A DNA stretch of 64,000 bases from Singulisphaera sp. GP187 (GTDB lineage Bacteria > Planctomycetota > Phycisphaerae > Phycisphaerales > SM1A02), in assembly GCA_945869475.1 (NCBI GenBank), contig CAMBOV010000005.1, positions 1 to 64,000 of the forward strand, read 5' to 3'. This document shows, in pieces, positions 47,630 to 56,391 of this stretch. How positions within the stretch are numbered: position 1 is the first letter of the stretch; every line of letters begins with the position of its first letter. The notes under the pieces are model-generated. The model was not told where the DNA came from and did no database searches. It saw only the letters and a list, made by a program, of their open reading frames with translations. The position numbers and the translations under genes are program-made.

Positions 47630-49135
47630 ATGAAGATTCATCACTTTGGCTCGTCGTGTGCCGTTGTCACAATGGCGCTCTGTTGCCTCGCACTCGCGGC
47701 GCTCTCACTCAGTCCGGCGGTGACCCCCGTTCACGCGCAAGGGTGCGCGAGCGACATCACTGGCGATGGTCAGATCAACGGCGCAGACCTCTCTCAGTTG
47801 CTGGCGGACTGGGGTTCATGCCCAGGGGTGATCACATCCGTGACTCCACTGCAAGGGTCGGTCTTGGGCGGTACTCAAATCACGATCAACGGAACAAGCC
47901 TCTCTGGAACAACTGCAGTGAAGATTGGCGGAGTTGCATGCAGCAACTTGCAAGTTCTATCACCGACATTGGTCAAGGCAGTCACGCCGGCAGGCGCAGC
48001 TGGTGAAGCGTCGATTGCGATTGTCTCTGCCGCTGGCTCAACTCTCGCTCCAACGCCATTTTCGTATGTGCTTCAGTCGATCACTTCGGTCTCGCCAGAT
48101 AATGGCAGTTATTCTGGCGGTACTGCGATCACGATCACGGGGACATTGCTCAATGGTGCGATCAGCGTCAAAGTTGGTGGAGTGCCTGCGACCAATGTGG
48201 TTGCAGTCAATTCGACGACGGTGACTGCAGTGACTCCTGCTGGATCGGTCGGTCCGGCGACCGTCGAGGTCACAGCTGCGAAGGGAATAGCAATTGCAAC
48301 GAATGCGTTTACATATATCCCCATCGTTGTTCCCGCGTGGGCAACGCTCTTGGAAGCACTGCCAGATGCGGCGGTTGTGACTGATGCAAATCTTCGTGCG
48401 GCGATTGTGGCAAGTGGATTTGCGTGGAGAATCAAAGACACTTCAAGCAACATCGAAATGCTGTTGGTTCCTGCGGGGATATTCACGATGGGATGCAGTG
48501 CTGGCGATACGGAGTGTGGCGGCGATGAAAGCCCTGCGCATCAAGTGACTTTGACGAATGCTTTTTATATGGGCAAGACTGAAGTGACACAGGCTCAGTG
48601 GCAGGCAAAGATGGGGAGTAATCCGAGTTCCCATTCTGGATACTCTGACAGCCCTACGCGTCCTGTCAACAACGTCTCTTGGAACATGATTGCATCAGGA
48701 TCTACTTCTTTTATGCCTCTCACAGGCTTGCGCTTACCGACTGAAGCCGAATGGGAATATGCGTATCGCGCCGGGACGACTACGGCGTTTCACAGTTTTC
48801 CTGGATATACGAGTGGTACAAACGACGACACTCTTCTTGGCAACATTGCGTGGTACGGCGATACCCAAACCCACGCCGTGGGCGGCAAGTATGCCAACGC
48901 CTTAGGCCTTCACGATATGTCAGGCAATGTTTGGGAGTGGTGCCAAGATTGGTATGTCGCTTATTCATCAGGAAGCGTGACCAACCCCACAGGACCCACG
49001 ACTGGTTCGTACCGTTTGGTGCGCGGCGGCGCCTATTACTACGGGTCCGGCAGGTGCCGCGCGTCCTGGCGCGGACCCGAAACGCCTAATATCGGCAACA
49101 ACGACCACGGCTTCCGCGTCGCGCGGAACCCGTAA
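47630..49135 (+). CDS. Secreted IPT/TIG plus FGE-sulfatase (lectin-fold) protein, likely DGR target 1
   Basis: The 501-residue protein has a signal peptide (cleavage after VHA at ~36), one dockerin-like EF-hand (DITGDGQINGADLSQLLADW), two IPT/TIG domains (about 68-148 and 150-232), and an FGE-sulfatase domain from ~270: MLLVPAGIFTMGCSAGD, FYMGKTEVTQAQWQAKMGSN, GLRLPTEAEWEYAYRAGTTT and MSGNVWEWCQDWY, ending RGGAYYYG...GFRVARNP. In FGE-fold proteins this last segment is the ligand face and is the variable region of many diversity-generating retroelements. The start is fixed by AGGAG eight bases before the ATG; an upstream in-frame ATG would precede the signal peptide. It probably displays a binding domain at the cell surface. 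Stop and next start overlap (TAATG). Confidence 0.9.
   Translation: MKIHHFGSSCAVVTMALCCLALAALSLSPAVTPVHAQGCASDITGDGQINGADLSQLLADWGSCPGVITSVTPLQGSVLGGTQITINGTSLSGTTAVKIGGVACSNLQVLSPTLVKAVTPAGAAGEASIAIVSAAGSTLAPTPFSYVLQSITSVSPDNGSYSGGTAITITGTLLNGAISVKVGGVPATNVVAVNSTTVTAVTPAGSVGPATVEVTAAKGIAIATNAFTYIPIVVPAWATLLEALPDAAVVTDANLRAAIVASGFAWRIKDTSSNIEMLLVPAGIFTMGCSAGDTECGGDESPAHQVTLTNAFYMGKTEVTQAQWQAKMGSNPSSHSGYSDSPTRPVNNVSWNMIASGSTSFMPLTGLRLPTEAEWEYAYRAGTTTAFHSFPGYTSGTNDDTLLGNIAWYGDTQTHAVGGKYANALGLHDMSGNVWEWCQDWYVAYSSGSVTNPTGPTTGSYRLVRGGAYYYGSGRCRASWRGPETPNIGNNDHGFRVARNP
49031..49132 (+). other. Predicted variable region 1 (VR1)
   Basis: These 34 codons before the stop align without gaps to 50623-50724 of the next gene. 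Constant codons (TCC, TGC CGC GCG, CGC, TTC CGC GTC, CCG) alternate with fully changed ones. This is the position of variable repeats in FGE-type DGR target proteins. Confidence 0.7.
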
Positions 49136-50727
49136 TGCGCACATCATTTCAAATCTGCATTCTCTCGCTCGTCGCATTGATCATCGGCGTCGCAGCGCCA
49201 AGAGTAAATGCGCAGTGCACTGGCGATGTCTATCCAAACGAGTTTGTTGACGCTGCCGATCTTGCTCAACTCCTGGCGGATTGGGGTCCGTGCACAAACT
49301 GCCAAGGTGATATCGATCGTGACGGTGCGGTGACTGGGGACGATCTTGGACAACTGCTTAGTGGATGGGGTCCATGTGCGCCATTCATTGAATCCGTTGC
49401 ACCAGCCCAAGGATCGATTGTTGGAGGAACACCCATCACAATTTCAGGTGCATACTTCACGAGTGCGACAAGCGTGTTAATCGGTGGCGCACTAGCGACA
49501 AATTTGGTCGTGGTCTCGTCAACAACGATCACAGCTGTGACTCCAGCGCATGCTGCGGGCTCTGTCAGCATCACTATCACGACGCCAAGTCGCATATCGA
49601 CATTTCAGAATGCGTTTTTGTATGCGTCGTCATCCATTCTTTCGGTTTTTCCAAACATGGGAGTGGTTGGCGGCGGTGCGCTCATCACCATTTCGGGGAA
49701 TTATCTTGGTGGTGCAACCAGTGTGACCATCGGCGGTGCGCCTGCGACAAACTTGGTTGTGGTTTCACCGACAACGATCACGGCGGTGACTCCAACAGGA
49801 ACACTTGGTCCAGCAGATGTGATTGTGACAACACCAGCAGGAACTCTCACCTCATTGAGCGGTTTTACCTATGTTTCCATCGTCGTTCCCGCTTGGGCAA
49901 CGCTGTTGGAGGTAACGCCGGATACGGCAGTTGTGACCGATGCGAATCTCCGCGCAGCGATCATCGCTTCGGGTTTGCCATGGCGCGTGCGAGACAACTC
50001 AAGCAATATCGAAATGTTTTTGGTTCCAGCTGGGACATTCACGATGGGATGCAGCGCGTCGACTGCGTATACGTGCAATTCCGACGAGAACCCGACGCAT
50101 CAAGTGACTCTGACGCAGGCTTTCTATATGGGCCGCTATGAAGTGACTCAGGCTCAGTGGACAGCGAAGATGGGGAGCAATCCGAGTCAATTCCAAGGAA
50201 GCTTTTATCCCGATGCGGCGAATCGTCCTGTCGAAAGAGTCTCTTGGAACATGATTGCATCAGGGCCTACTTCTTTTATGTCTCTCACAGGTTTGCGCTT
50301 ACCAACTGAAGCCGAATGGGAATATGCGTATCGCGCCGGAACAACAACGGCGTTTCACAGCTATCCAACGCAGCCAACTGGTTTCGACGACGACACACTT
50401 CTTGGCAACATTGCGTGGTACTGGGGAAACAATGGCTTACAAGGATCTACTACCTATGGAACGAAACCCGTCGGCGGCAAGCTTGCCAACGCGCTTGGCT
50501 TGCACGACATGTCAGGCAATGTGTGGGAGTGGTGCCAGGATTGGTATGGGCCTTATTCATCAGCAAGCGTGACCAACCCCACAGGGCCCGCGACTGGCAC
50601 GGACCGTTTGTTGCGCGGCGGCCTCTGGGGCGGCAACTCCAACTCCTGCCGCGCGTCGCGGCGCTACTTCACCGCGCCCGCCGACATCTACTTCGGCATC
50701 GGGTTCCGCGTCGTGAGGACTCCGTAG
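49135..50727 (+). CDS. Secreted IPT/TIG plus FGE-sulfatase (lectin-fold) protein, likely DGR target 2
   Basis: The 530-residue protein is a paralogue of the preceding one: signal peptide (cleavage after VNA at ~26), a degenerate and an intact EF-hand (QGDIDRDGAVTGDDLGQLLS), two IPT/TIG domains (~84-165 and ~166-250), and an FGE-sulfatase domain with MFLVPAGTFTMGCSAS, GLRLPTEAEWEYAYRAGTTT and MSGNVWEWCQDWYGPYSS. The end RLLRGGLWGGNSNSC...GFRVVRTP is the lectin-fold binding face. The two proteins are closely related in the FGE body but differ in most surface residues of the last 34 codons. It starts with an ATG inside the stop of the upstream gene, so the pair is coupled. FGE enzymatic activity is not expected; surface recognition is likely. 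Confidence 0.9.
   Translation: MRTSFQICILSLVALIIGVAAPRVNAQCTGDVYPNEFVDAADLAQLLADWGPCTNCQGDIDRDGAVTGDDLGQLLSGWGPCAPFIESVAPAQGSIVGGTPITISGAYFTSATSVLIGGALATNLVVVSSTTITAVTPAHAAGSVSITITTPSRISTFQNAFLYASSSILSVFPNMGVVGGGALITISGNYLGGATSVTIGGAPATNLVVVSPTTITAVTPTGTLGPADVIVTTPAGTLTSLSGFTYVSIVVPAWATLLEVTPDTAVVTDANLRAAIIASGLPWRVRDNSSNIEMFLVPAGTFTMGCSASTAYTCNSDENPTHQVTLTQAFYMGRYEVTQAQWTAKMGSNPSQFQGSFYPDAANRPVERVSWNMIASGPTSFMSLTGLRLPTEAEWEYAYRAGTTTAFHSYPTQPTGFDDDTLLGNIAWYWGNNGLQGSTTYGTKPVGGKLANALGLHDMSGNVWEWCQDWYGPYSSASVTNPTGPATGTDRLLRGGLWGGNSNSCRASRRYFTAPADIYFGIGFRVVRTP
50623..50724 (+). other. Predicted variable region 2 (VR2)
   Basis: These 34 codons are in register with VR1. Eleven aligned codon pairs are NNC in both copies but differ at base 1 and/or 2 (for example TAC/GGC, ATC/GAC, AAC/TTC), the pattern produced when AAC codons of a template are mutagenised at adenines. 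The GC content is visibly higher than in the gene body. Confidence 0.7.
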
Positions 50728-50741
50728 TTTCATCTACCCTT

Positions 50742-50785
50742 GCAGGCTCCGCCAAGCGGAGCCTGCTTCCATTTTCCATTTTCTC
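50742..50785 (+). terminator. Strong hairpin with T-rich tail after VR2 (terminator or DGR cruciform)
   Basis: A perfect 11-bp stem GCAGGCTCCGC / GCGGAGCCTGC with a CAA loop spans 50742-50766, 14 bp after the stop, and is followed by a T-rich stretch. It can end the transcript. DGRs also carry a hairpin just behind the variable region that helps homing, and this one is in that place. Confidence 0.85.
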
Positions 50786-50865
50786 TTTTTCATTTTTACT
50801 TCTTCTGTCTTAGTCCGCGGCCTTCGCCGCGGAGGCGTGAAATCGTGGTCCCCCTTCGGCTGTGG

Positions 50866-50897
50866 GCAAAAATCGCCCGCTTGCGGGCGATTTTTGC
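50866..50897. terminator. Perfect 15-bp hairpin with A/T ends, bidirectional terminator-like
   Basis: GCAAAAATCGCCCGC pairs with GCGGGCGATTTTTGC around a 2-base loop. Its five A:T pairs at the open end give a U-tract in either direction. A smaller hairpin CCGCGGC / GCCGCGG lies ~35 bp before it. Between 50898 and 51028 there is no gene; one frame reads as a short start-less peptide, and two TTTGATCAA copies lie just before 51029. Confidence 0.8.
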
Positions 50898-51028
50898 TCG
50901 CAGGCTGTGAAGGCTGTCGCATCGAGTCTGCGCATCTCGATGTGCTCACCAATCGTCGTTTGCAGGTTGACGCGGGTCTTCAAGTCGAACTCGCAAACCA
51001 GGTGGGACTGGTTTGATCAATTTGATCA

Positions 51029-51282
51029 ATGAGCGAAAGGCGTTGGGCCAAACGGCGAAAGCCTGATCTCTCGCGTTTTCTGCTCGACCTCGTGCCTGCA
51101 TGCTTTCGCCTCGCGGCAGAACTCGCCAACGAATGCTGGCGACCAGACGAATCTACAGCGTTCTACATTCGAGAGCCCAAGCCGCGAATGATCAGCGCAG
51201 CACCAATCTGCGACCGCGTGGCACATCACGCGATTGTCTCGCTGCTCGAACCGCACTTCGAGTGGCGGTTTGTCGCGCACAT
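51029..51282 (+). pseudogene. N-terminal fragment of a DGR-type reverse transcriptase
   Basis: The frame gives about 84 residues matching the start of retroelement reverse transcriptases of the diversity-generating kind: FRLAAELANECWRPDE, then FYIREPKPRMISAAPICDRV and AHHAIVSLLEPHFEWRFVAH. The Bordetella phage Brt protein has the corresponding EPKPRLISA...DRLVQHAL...APIFE segment. The similarity stops at about 51281, before the palm domain, so the catalytic YxDD is absent and the fragment cannot be active. The frame closes at 51337. It lies 300 bp downstream of the second FGE protein, the usual order in DGR cassettes. The family call is good; DGR versus group II-intron RT rests on context and the ISAAP motif. 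Confidence 0.72.
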
Positions 51283-51381
51283 TCGTTCGCCAGGGCTCGA
51301 ATCGCTGAAGATGCGGACTACCACGGGGTACGGGTGACCTTTCGTGGTCAACGTGGAAAGACCACCCTCCCCATCGGTTTG
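51283..51381 (+). pseudogene. Possible fragment of an AbiEii-type nucleotidyltransferase
   Basis: One frame over from the RT fragment, 51283-51381 reads ARIAEDADYHGVRVTFRGQR followed by GKTTLPIG. This resembles the middle of AbiEii/DUF1814 toxins (IREDADYxGVRVxF, then GKxxIPxQIDIGFGD). The piece has no start and stops matching 10 bp before the end of the convergent STAS-kinase gene. It suggests that a second defence-type gene was fused to the RT remnant by deletion. The match is short. Confidence 0.45.
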
Positions 51382-51390
51382 ACCCCCAAA

Positions 51391-52587
51391 TCAGGTCCCA
51401 CCCGCCTCCACCAAAATCTTCGGCAGCAGCAACTCCCGAACCTGCTGGCTGAACTGATCGCGCATGTGCGGCAAATAGTTGATCGCACACACAATCCGGA
51501 GCGATGCCAGGAAGTATCGGTTGGCATCAAAAAAAGCGCGCTCGTTCGCTGGGCGACCCGCGAAGTAGTGCGCCGCGAAACTGTTCCAAAATTGCACGCC
51601 TTGCGCGGGGTCAATCTTGGTGGCAAGCGCGCAGATGCCCAGCTCTGGTAGGCCGTAGATCAAGTACAGCAGACCGATGTCGAAGTAGTTGCTTCCAATC
51701 GAGAAATCGCCCATGTCGATGATCACCAGTTCGCCGTCCTGCTCCATGATGTTGCTCGAGTGCAGGTCGAAGTGCACGCATGTGTCCGCATCCGGAATCA
51801 CTTCCAGACGCTCTAAGAGCAGGGCGATCTGCGCCGGTTCGAACACCCCGTGCAGCTGGTTGATGTAAGCGCGAATGCGATCCTTCAGTCGAGGTAGTAC
51901 TTCGGCGTCACCCGTAGCGGCGTGCAGGCTCGTGGCTAAGTCGGCAAGCCGCTTTGCGTGCCGGTCGATCTGCTGCGGTTCGCGCCGGATCACAGCACTG
52001 AAGAGCTCAGCGTTGAGCAACTCGAACACGATCCCCGAGCGCGTGCCGCAGGTGACCACGTCGTAGGAGACAGCGGTTGGAATGCCCAGCACGAACGCGG
52101 CCTGCGCGTAGCGCTTCTCAAGCTCGGCCATGCTGAGGTCAACGCCATCCTTGTAGAGCTTCACCACCGTTTCGTTGTCGAGGCGGAAGCACTCGCCGCA
52201 TACGCCCGAGGAGAGAAGCTCACGACCTTCGATCGAGATCTCGCGTGCAGTCCGAGCGACCGTGATGACCTTGGAGATACCGGTCATATCGAAGACATCT
52301 CGCATCGCCGGCGAAAGGTTGCGCGCAATGAACTTGCCGCCCGCGGCAGCCATGCGCCGGTGCGCCATCAAGAGGGTCCGGATGCCCGCACTTGAGATGT
52401 AGGGGCACTTAGTGAAATCGACCACGATTTCCTGCAATCCCGTGACATCGAGGTGGGCCTCAAGTTCCGGCGCGGTGTTGGTGTCAAGGTTGCCGTTGAC
52501 GACGACGATTCGCCGGTCGCGTTGCGTGTCGGTGGTGATCTGCATCGAGGGGGTGATGCTACGGGGTGCGTCGTGAGCGGTATTCAT
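51391..52587 (-). CDS. STAS domain fused to an aminoglycoside-phosphotransferase-like kinase
   Basis: The 398-residue protein begins with a STAS domain (MQITTDTQRDRRIVVVNGNL, then IVVDFTKCPYISSAGIRTLL with the phospho-acceptor serines), followed by an APH/choline-kinase-like domain: ETVVKLYKDG (ATP lysine), SGIVFELLNAELFSAVI, the Brenner motif VHFDLHSSNIM and the metal aspartate in VIIDMGDFSIG. I recognise the layout as that of the TIGR02172 family. It may be a self-contained switch in which the kinase acts on the STAS domain or a small molecule. Starts at 52587, 52545 or 52629 are possible. The gene is bordered by gene fragments on one side and an inverted repeat on the other, which suggests arrival by transfer. 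Confidence 0.8.
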   Translation of the reverse strand: MNTAHDAPRSITPSMQITTDTQRDRRIVVVNGNLDTNTAPELEAHLDVTGLQEIVVDFTKCPYISSAGIRTLLMAHRRMAAAGGKFIARNLSPAMRDVFDMTGISKVITVARTAREISIEGRELLSSGVCGECFRLDNETVVKLYKDGVDLSMAELEKRYAQAAFVLGIPTAVSYDVVTCGTRSGIVFELLNAELFSAVIRREPQQIDRHAKRLADLATSLHAATGDAEVLPRLKDRIRAYINQLHGVFEPAQIALLLERLEVIPDADTCVHFDLHSSNIMEQDGELVIIDMGDFSIGSNYFDIGLLYLIYGLPELGICALATKIDPAQGVQFWNSFAAHYFAGRPANERAFFDANRYFLASLRIVCAINYLPHMRDQFSQQVRELLLPKILVEAGGT

Positions 52588-52670
52588 CCGATCACGTGGG
52601 TGACATATGTGCCCGAACACTTGGGTCACCTTTGCGACCGGTCTGTACGGCGCCCTGCCCGGCGGTATCG

Positions 52671-55053: not shown

Positions 55054-56391
55054 ATGAATGAAATTATCCGCCTCCTCGACTCCGTTGCACGAGACCGAAA
55101 CATTGACCGCGAACTCTTGGTTCAAGACCTCGAACTCGCGATGGTGAGTGCTGCACGCAAGCACTTCAACTCAGAAGATCCCGACGAGTTCGGGTGCGAG
55201 ATCGACCGACTCGCGGGCGGCATCGTCTTGTGGCGCAACAATGAAGATGCGACGCGTGAAGTGATTCCGCTCGAGCGCCTCGGTCGAATTCCAGCTCAAA
55301 CGGCGAAGCAAGTCATGATTCAGCGCTTCCGAGAAAACGAGCGCATTTCGCTTCTCGATGAGTTCTCGAAGCGCCAAGGTGAATTGGTCACCGGTGTTGC
55401 GCAGCGATACGAAGGCAATGCGCTCATTGTGCAACTCGAACGAGCCGAAGGATTTATGCCCAAGAGTGAGCAGATTCCGGGTGAGCAGTTTCAGGCAGGC
55501 GATCGTGTGCGCTGCATCTTGCTCGATGTGCGCGACGCAGGAAGCCAAGTGAAAATCGTCATGAGCCGCGCGCATCCCGACTTCATCCGCCGACTCTTTG
55601 AATCTGAAGTGCCCGAGGTTGCCGAGCGAACCATCGAGATCAAAGCGATGTCGCGCGAGCCAGGATTCAGAACAAAGCTTGCAGTCTCGTCGGTTGACTC
55701 GAAGGTCGATGCCGTCGGCGCCTGCGTCGGAGTGCGTGGATCGCGCATCCGCAACATCGTCGACGAACTCGGTGGCGAGAAGATCGACATCGTGCGCTGG
55801 AATGAGTCGAGCCAAGTGCTCATCGCAAACGCGCTCAAGCCAGCCGAAGTCGAAGAGGTCAGCCTCTGCTTCGAACTCGGACGAGCGACGATCATTGTGC
55901 GCGACGACCAGTTGTCGCTCGCGATCGGCCGCCGAGGTCAAAACGTGCGACTCGCGGCGCGATTGACCGGATGGGACGTCGACATTCTCACTCCGCCAGA
56001 ATTCGAGAAGGGATTGCAAACTCTGCAGGCTGCCGTCAAGGCTGTCGAGGGCGCGACCGATGAGATGCTCGACCGGATGGGTGCGCTTGGCATGATCAGC
56101 GTCTTCGATGTCGAAGAAATCGGCGAGCCATCGCTCGTTGCTGACTGTGGCATGTCCGAAGAGTTGGCCGTGCGCGTCGTCGATGCCTGTTCGGATCGCG
56201 CGAAGGTCGTCGCCGAAGAGATGCAGAACGAACGTGCTGCAGCTGAATTGTTGCAAGCTGAAGAGGGTGCTGTTGTCGATGCACTTCTTGGAACGCGCAG
56301 CGCCTCTGGAGCTGCTGCGCCGGTGATCGATGCAGGTAGCGAAGCCGCTGCGGACAGCATCCTTGGTATCGGCGGGTCAGGCGCGGGCTAA
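55054..56391 (+). CDS. nusA: Transcription termination/antitermination factor NusA
   Basis: The 445-residue protein has the NusA order: N-terminal RNA polymerase-binding domain (MNEIIRLLDSVARDRNIDRE, ending near 125), an S1 domain with GELVTGVAQRYEGNALIVQL and AEGFMPKSEQIPGEQFQAGD, two KH domains (GACVGVRGSRIRNIVDELGG and LSLAIGRRGQNVRLAARLTG) and a helical C-terminal part (LDRMGALGMISVFDVEEIGE). NusA controls pausing, termination and antitermination. An AAAGGATCC lies ~10 bases before the ATG. It is the first gene of nusA-infB-rbfA; rimP, usually upstream, is missing here and its place is taken by the leader RNA. Confidence 0.96.
   Translation: MNEIIRLLDSVARDRNIDRELLVQDLELAMVSAARKHFNSEDPDEFGCEIDRLAGGIVLWRNNEDATREVIPLERLGRIPAQTAKQVMIQRFRENERISLLDEFSKRQGELVTGVAQRYEGNALIVQLERAEGFMPKSEQIPGEQFQAGDRVRCILLDVRDAGSQVKIVMSRAHPDFIRRLFESEVPEVAERTIEIKAMSREPGFRTKLAVSSVDSKVDAVGACVGVRGSRIRNIVDELGGEKIDIVRWNESSQVLIANALKPAEVEEVSLCFELGRATIIVRDDQLSLAIGRRGQNVRLAARLTGWDVDILTPPEFEKGLQTLQAAVKAVEGATDEMLDRMGALGMISVFDVEEIGEPSLVADCGMSEELAVRVVDACSDRAKVVAEEMQNERAAAELLQAEEGAVVDALLGTRSASGAAAPVIDAGSEAAADSILGIGGSGAG

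Follow-up and report, generated by a model that had tools for sequence, protein, structure and literature searches.

A broken diversity-generating retroelement with two tandem lectin-fold targets in a planctomycete genome

Two tandem genes with differing 3' ends lie in front of a reverse transcriptase (RT) fragment at positions 47,630 to 51,282 of a 64,000-nt stretch of DNA from Singulisphaera sp. GP187 (contig CAMBOV010000005.1, positions 1 to 64,000; the whole stretch is called the window). The first-pass annotation took the genes for the targets of a broken diversity-generating retroelement (DGR). The locus raises two questions: whether a DGR wrote the ends of these genes, and which copy wrote them last. 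The analyses indicate that what remains here is the target end of a broken Avd-type DGR; the probability that the gene ends are of DGR origin and that the cassette is broken is about 0.9. The genome (G000) is a draft of 32 contigs with 96.7% completeness. The window lies on its contig C5; C1, C6, C11 and C15 are other contigs of the same genome, and other G numbers denote related genomes. The coordinates of all features are given in Table 1.

The differences in the gene ends are adenine-specific. For the test, 114 nt of each tail were compared with the template repeat (TR) of G007, which belongs to another species and not to G000, and which provides 34 adenine and 80 other sites. Gene 2 differs from this TR at 23/34 adenines and 3/80 other sites (Fisher p=7e-13), and gene 1 at 21/34 and 16/80 (p=2.5e-5). 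Two paralogues of the FGE-sulfatase family from the same genome were used as controls and showed no such bias: L003 differs at 21/34 adenine and 39/80 other sites (p 0.22), and L006 at 20/34 and 41/80 (p 0.54). Gene 2 carries a genuine DGR variable region (VR). Gene 1 is an older, eroded target, and not a current VR. Both tails had been described as hypervariable at first pass, which the adenine specificity bears out, except that the VR of gene 1 is no longer current. Both controls are from one locus of three tandem FGE-sulfatase genes (L021, G000:C6:109835-112728); the tails of these two were tested, and neither has the adenine signature.

A search of the own genome for FGE domains gave 11 matches. 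Reading of the tails, together with a pattern search tolerating up to 3 mismatches, identified four VRs: those of gene 2, C1:471631, C11:4372, and C15:68748. Compared with the G007 TR over the same sites, the C1 VR has 23 adenine and 3 other differences, the C11 VR 21 and 2, and the C15 VR 15 and 7. Across the four VRs, variation occurs in 33/34 of the TR adenine columns and in 6/80 of the others. When the TR of G020 was used instead, gene 2 differed at 23/33 adenine and 14/81 other sites. Since the own VRs fit this TR worse than that of G007, the missing TR was apparently of the G007 type. As an internal check, a target of G020 differs from the TR of G020 itself at 14/33 adenine and 1/81 other sites.

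Comparison with orthologues supports the same assignment. A colinear tandem pair of both genes was found in G020:C62, with 80.5% identity over 3018 aligned columns. The bodies are well conserved, with 343/439 identical residues in gene 1 and 393/481 in gene 2. At the 18 VR codons that contain adenine in the TR, however, agreement falls to 0/18 (gene 1) and 3/18 (gene 2); at the other 22 VR codons, 18 and 19 agree, respectively. Conserved bodies with differing codons at the TR adenines indicate that both genes were targets. The tails are thus not conserved between orthologues, which was the check proposed by the first-pass annotation. The homology ends right after the gene 2 stop, and in the approximately 420 nt up to the contig end of G020:C62 no match to the avd-RT wreck was found.

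The FGE-sulfatase ends claimed for the two genes were recovered by Pfam (E 2.2e-41 for gene 1, 4.6e-45 for gene 2), as were two TIG stretches in each protein. A dockerin-like domain had also been proposed, but no dockerin family was found in either protein by Pfam at E<=0.1; the resemblance was by eye. The proteins share 61% identity, and 18 of their last 40 residues agree; the N-terminal part is also poorly conserved. The two reading frames overlap at TAATG. The VR sits at the C-terminal end of the lectin-type fold, as is usual for a DGR. Among the solved structures, the top match of gene 2 is variable protein 1 of Treponema denticola (2y3c, E 4.5e-28), presumably itself a DGR target, which outranks every formylglycine-generating enzyme listed. 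An AlphaFold model of gene 2 was poor (predicted local distance difference test score 43.6, two sequences) and was set aside. The proteins of both genes are probably secreted lectin-fold binding proteins, and the cell probably goes on producing them in the version left by the last rewriting.

The machinery behind gene 2 is wrecked. Within the open reading frame (ORF) at 51029-51337, only about 51038-51283 belongs to an RT, and the last 16-17 residues lie outside all RT matches. As the first-pass annotation stated, the RT is cut before its palm domain, and the catalytic motif is missing with it; an N-terminal stretch is missing as well. One idea for this gap, an origin between paired copies of a 10-base repeat, was dropped, as G020 and G007 lack the repeat and G013 has one copy. 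The RT piece is 63-71% identical (residues 7-85) to the type-1 RTs of the same-genus genomes G007, G013, G020, and G022. PHROGs (E 1.1e-15) and PADLOC (1.8e-6) label it simply RT, as they do the complete G007 RT, and Pfam gave nothing for the piece at E<=0.1. In a phmmer search, the G007 RT (residues 9-338) matched 8ub7 at 2.9e-39, compared with 1.8e-21 for the best group II intron RT, 6ar1. The database names 8ub7 only 'Reverse transcriptase'; we take it to be the DGR RT of Bordetella phage BPP-1. The RT family check, which had been named beforehand, did not refute the original call: the piece is closest to DGR RTs.

Intact relatives show what has been lost. In G020, G013, and G007, avd is followed by a complete RT, whose 3' end carries an AAC-rich TR; G020 and G013 also have a VR-bearing target end in front of avd. 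The Avd of G020 matched DivGenRetAVD in NCBIfam (2.8e-16, 59.7 bits, cut-off 80) and bAvd in Pfam (1e-6, 29.6 bits, cut-off 40). A hairpin close behind the VR is a feature of DGRs. Five inverted repeats lie between the VR of gene 2 and the RT piece, and three of them were folded as hairpins. The first-pass annotation called the order of target, hairpin, and RT canonical; this is amended here, as the order in intact type-1 relatives is target-VR, avd, RT, and TR. The 59 bases after the gene 2 stop (50728-50786) are 98-100% identical behind one VR of G018 and two VRs of G007, and might possibly be a functional or mobile 3' module. The shared 3' end of the VRs (50704-50727) is a candidate initiation-of-mutagenic-homing end.

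Some of the VRs appear to have been homogenised by a template. Gene 2 and C1 agree at 80/80 non-adenine sites, including 38/38 third positions, and gene 2 and C11 at 78/80; between gene 1 and any of gene 2, C1, and C11 the count is 66/80. Upstream of the VR, an alignment of 300 bases of gene 2 and C1 matches in 59% of columns, compared with 52% for shuffled sequence, and in the nearest 60 bases a gapped alignment gives 46% (shuffled 49%), which is the shuffle level. The proteins ahead of the VR share 113/212 residues, so that the C1 target is a distant FGE relative of gene 2. The likeness of these two VRs is much better explained by copying from one template than by common descent. In the 120 bases preceding the VR, genes 1 and 2 match in 87% of columns, yet inside the VR only at 66/80 non-adenine sites, which argues that the VR of gene 1 was not refreshed from that template.

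From the moment at which writing ends, the non-adenine sites serve as a clock. The age of a VR was measured as its deviation from the nearest TR at 75 non-adenine sites in the first 108 nt. The comparison covered 46 VR-like sequences, which remained of 52 regular-expression rows after five TRs and one row truncated at a locus edge had been removed. The loci had been selected, and the expression also captures an FGE tail of G010, which is not necessarily a VR. One codon skip was permitted, by which four rows were changed. The deviations are 1/75 for C11, 2/75 for C1, 2/75 for gene 2, 6/75 for C15, and 14/75 for gene 1. The VRs of one genome can therefore be ranked: gene 2, C1, and C11 are young, C15 is older, and gene 1 is the oldest. 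The two deviating bases of gene 2, counted before the 3' end, are the same two as in C1. The VRs of G007 deviate from their own TRs at 0-2 sites. In G020, which has an unbroken RT, the VRs deviate at 0-19 sites from the own TR; old VRs thus persist beside working machinery too.

The adjoining RT piece seems to tell a different time. It differs from the G007 RT at 62/204 bases, compared with 36/204 between G007 and G020 and 60-66 between G007 and RTs of other genera; this comparison used 8 of 14 RT loci, the remaining ones being type 2, truncated, or not chosen. The piece also departs at 6/42 residues that are invariant in eight intact or near-intact RTs. The housekeeping control locus (window 55054-56391, a presumably NusA-like gene) is 79% identical between G000 and G007. 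The VR of gene 2 looks younger than the RT wreck beside it.

The proposed mechanism is as follows. The last 40 codons of genes 1 and 2 would have been rewritten by mutagenic retrohoming: the RT would copy a template RNA and misread adenines, and the resulting complementary DNA would replace the 3' end of the target, with the chemistry taken over from the known DGR family. The avd and RT in cis have been destroyed, with deletions, as is seen in the sequence. Because the VR of gene 2 has no private non-adenine change while the adjoining RT is broken and diverged, its latest rewriting, like that of the targets on C1 and C11, probably took place in trans, from a DGR copy whose TR was nearly identical to that of G007. 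This other copy would since have been lost, or it is absent from the assembly. The locus was called dead in cis at first pass, and the wrecked avd and RT agree with this; the description is amended here, in that another copy probably wrote the VR of gene 2 in trans.

The first-pass annotation proposed a genome-wide search for a TR, a complete RT, and Avd. This search found none of them, only remnants, but it revealed the three further VR targets. An intact Avd accessory protein was not found in the own genome, only remnants in the window and on C15, and C15 carries a second decayed avd-RT copy. Scanned against genome contigs, the RT piece gave no relative; the search among genomes of the family, described below, did. 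A faint RT-like hit on C6 (E 0.456, with two stops) was put down to chance. On C15, a zeta-toxin-like ORF was observed in L017 (G000:C15:67248-68846, at about C15:67374-67433, minus strand), which has a GPNGSGKTS motif by eye and a terminal stretch that resembles a VR 3' end together with the sequence downstream of it. This stretch is 85% identical to the window over 62 nt, and looks as though a VR end had become fused to the ORF.

Several observations weigh against the DGR reading or its trans step. No TR was found in the own genome by the pattern search in this draft, although the pattern would match a TR of the same type too. PF00078 gave 0 matches, and the complete G007 RT as query hit only the window piece. 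Selection on the VR scaffold, or a very recent loss of the cis RT, could also have kept the non-adenine sites unchanged. The changes of the RT piece relative to G007 fall mostly on third positions (12, 11, and 39 at the three codon positions), so much of its divergence may predate the decay. Over 227 nt, the VR region on C15 shares 98.2% identity with one of G019 (G019:C184), so not every VR here was being rewritten; this stretch sits at a contig end, however, where an assembly chimera is conceivable. In NCBIfam, a group II maturase is ranked first for the RT piece (16.6 bits) and for the G007 RT (135.4 bits), in both cases below the cut-off of 300. No DGR-RT family was returned by NCBIfam for either, and the Avd and RT of the relatives score below the NCBIfam DGR or RT cut-offs.

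What became of the machinery can be explained in more than one way. The chances are about even that the lineage has lost the DGR altogether, which would leave every VR frozen and the binding repertoire fixed. In favour of this, no complete RT and no TR turned up in the draft, two separate avd-RT copies have decayed, and the C15 VR is identical to that of G019 at the variable sites. Any such loss would be recent, because the VRs of gene 2 and C1 have no private non-adenine change, and absence from a draft is weak evidence. It is less probable, but conceivable, that the DGR is intact in the organism and that only the RT-TR piece was not assembled, the window locus being one of several remote targets still diversified in trans. 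A draft of this completeness could easily lose such a piece, as 11/17 of the RT matches outside G000 are no more than 1 kb away from a contig end. Fresh VRs occur on C5, C1, and C11. However, the second decayed copy on C15 speaks against it, and 7/12 VR-bearing genomes of the genus are without a complete RT or TR, though the drafts are 70-97% complete. Ordinary divergence of two FGE paralogues beside an unrelated group II intron RT fragment is very improbable: the sub-threshold maturase name and the different tails of the two non-DGR paralogues would fit it, but not the adenine specificity (none in the controls), the template homogenisation, the TRs and Avd of the relatives, or the comparison with the G020:C62 orthologues.

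The broken DGR of the window was compared with its relatives. The RT piece was searched in 181 genomes of the family and matched in 16, the own genome included (E<=1e-4). In a census of 19 genomes of the genus, a VR or TR was found by pattern in 12 (47 matches), and an RT at E<=1e-80 in 5. The type-1 RT is unbroken in G007, G013, and G020, and has one stop in G022; the type-2 RT is unbroken in G007, G021, and G022, and is 43-44% identical to the G007 type-1 RT. The type-2 loci are L056 (G021:C15), L057 (G007:C90), and L061 (G022:C25). Seven of the 12 VR-bearing genomes (G000, G011, G017, G018, G019, G023, and G024, with 18/47 matches) have neither a complete RT nor an AAC-rich match. In G010, G015, G013, G007, and G000, Avd pieces stand without an adjacent complete RT; those of G010 and G015 follow an FGE target. 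In these two loci, L113 (G010:C36) and L114 (G015:C36), the FGE target is followed by an avd matching only to about residue 66, behind which lies an isolated piece of an FGE domain.

From one species to another, the targets seem to change their template. In G022:C14 and G018:C78, type-2 VRs are found on relatives of the C1 target, whose VR in G000 is of type 1. Look-alike VR pairs of different species were chosen by eye. One of them, L127 (G019:C268) and L088 (G022:C74), is 95.3% identical over 1081 nt with nearly the same VR, compared with 82.2% at the housekeeping locus; this likeness reflects either a frozen VR or gene transfer. G019 and G020 are 97% identical at the housekeeping locus, so their mutual likeness is unremarkable. 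The 7/12 genomes without RT and TR, together with the 95% versus 82% gene pair, tentatively suggest that in this genus the machinery is transient and the targets persist. Cassettes might multiply as target plus avd-RT piece, the machinery might decay or be replaced by a DGR with another TR, and the VR proteins might outlive it as a settled repertoire. If so, the window would represent one cycle, with a fossil cis RT beside a VR that was later rewritten in trans.

The present locus shares features with several known systems. The RT of G007 (residues 9-338) and the Avd of G020 are homologous to those of the Bordetella phage BPP-1 DGR, provided that 8ub7 is what we take it to be. In BPP-1 the order is reportedly VR, TR, avd, and RT. 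The type-2 locus of G021 has this order, and in type-1 relatives the TR comes after the RT. The match of gene 2 to 2y3c links it to TvpA of Treponema denticola, in which the VR presumably also lies at the C-terminal end of the fold. Compared with TvpA and the other FGE or C-type-lectin variable proteins of DGRs (PMC4891356, PMC5006420, and PMC6328139), the targets here are joined to TIG domains, stand in tandem, and have their machinery broken in cis. According to the sections of PMC10907252 on Thiohalocapsa PB-PSB1, that genome has several DGR loci with C-type-lectin ends, some degenerate with missing or pseudogenised machinery; VRs there equal a TR elsewhere at all non-adenine sites, and trans diversification was inferred. 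There, one complete locus per class is described, whereas no complete RT or TR is present in the G000 assembly. The target domains described there include NACHT, TIR, CHAT, and kinase, in contrast to TIG and FGE here. Multiple VRs are common, in 271/948 non-redundant DGRs by the figure given in PMC6642488, and DGRs have been classed as active or inactive from reads, as outlined in PMC8144416. No paper joining 'diversity-generating retroelement' and 'Phycisphaer' was found in the literature searched, which says little. Degenerate and trans-diversified DGR loci are already published, and the present locus adds a well-documented case. It is a readable record of a broken hypermutation machine. As the genus has intact, decayed, and RT-less genomes side by side, trans diversification and the selective keeping of settled variants are testable. 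VRs without an RT could escape RT-first surveys.

Table 1. Features of the locus (positions in the window)
Feature	Position	Strand	Description
Target gene 1	47630..49135	+	501 aa; 2 TIG stretches, C-terminal FGE-sulfatase (C-type-lectin-like) domain; N-terminus secreted-looking by eye
VR of gene 1	49013..49132	+	old, eroded; no hairpin behind, as the stop overlaps the gene 2 start
Target gene 2	49135..50727	+	530 aa; 2 TIG stretches and FGE-sulfatase domain
VR of gene 2	50605..50724	+	fresh; all 80 non-adenine sites as in the C1 VR
Shared 3' VR end	50704..50727	+	TTC CG[C/T] GTC GTG AGG ACT CCG TA[A/G]; in gene 2, C1, C11, C15
Hairpin 1	50742..50766	+	just 3' of the target stop; 11-bp perfect stem, 3-nt loop; DNA fold z -6.1
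Hairpin 2	50814..50833	+	8-bp stem
Hairpin 3	50860..50903	+	strongest; 21-nt arms, 90% complementary; terminator-like
avd remnant	~50918..51009	+	internal deletions; readable pieces RIESAHLDVL, NRRLQV, GLQVELANQV
DGR RT remnant	51029..51283	+	start region, ~26 residues missing, then KRRKPD...FVAH; without palm domain and catalytic motif
Open frame beyond RT breakpoint	51284..51337	+	not RT; no RT match extends beyond query residue 85-86

The gene behind the RT piece (window 51391-52629, minus strand) joins a STAS-like N-terminus and a kinase/phosphotransferase-like part, as seen by eye. Synteny analysis by means of this gene failed: of the 19 genomes searched, 5 others have homologues, and these reach no more than 53-54% or 33-34% identity. 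The closest homologues in the genus, with 53-54% identity, are found in 4 other genomes.

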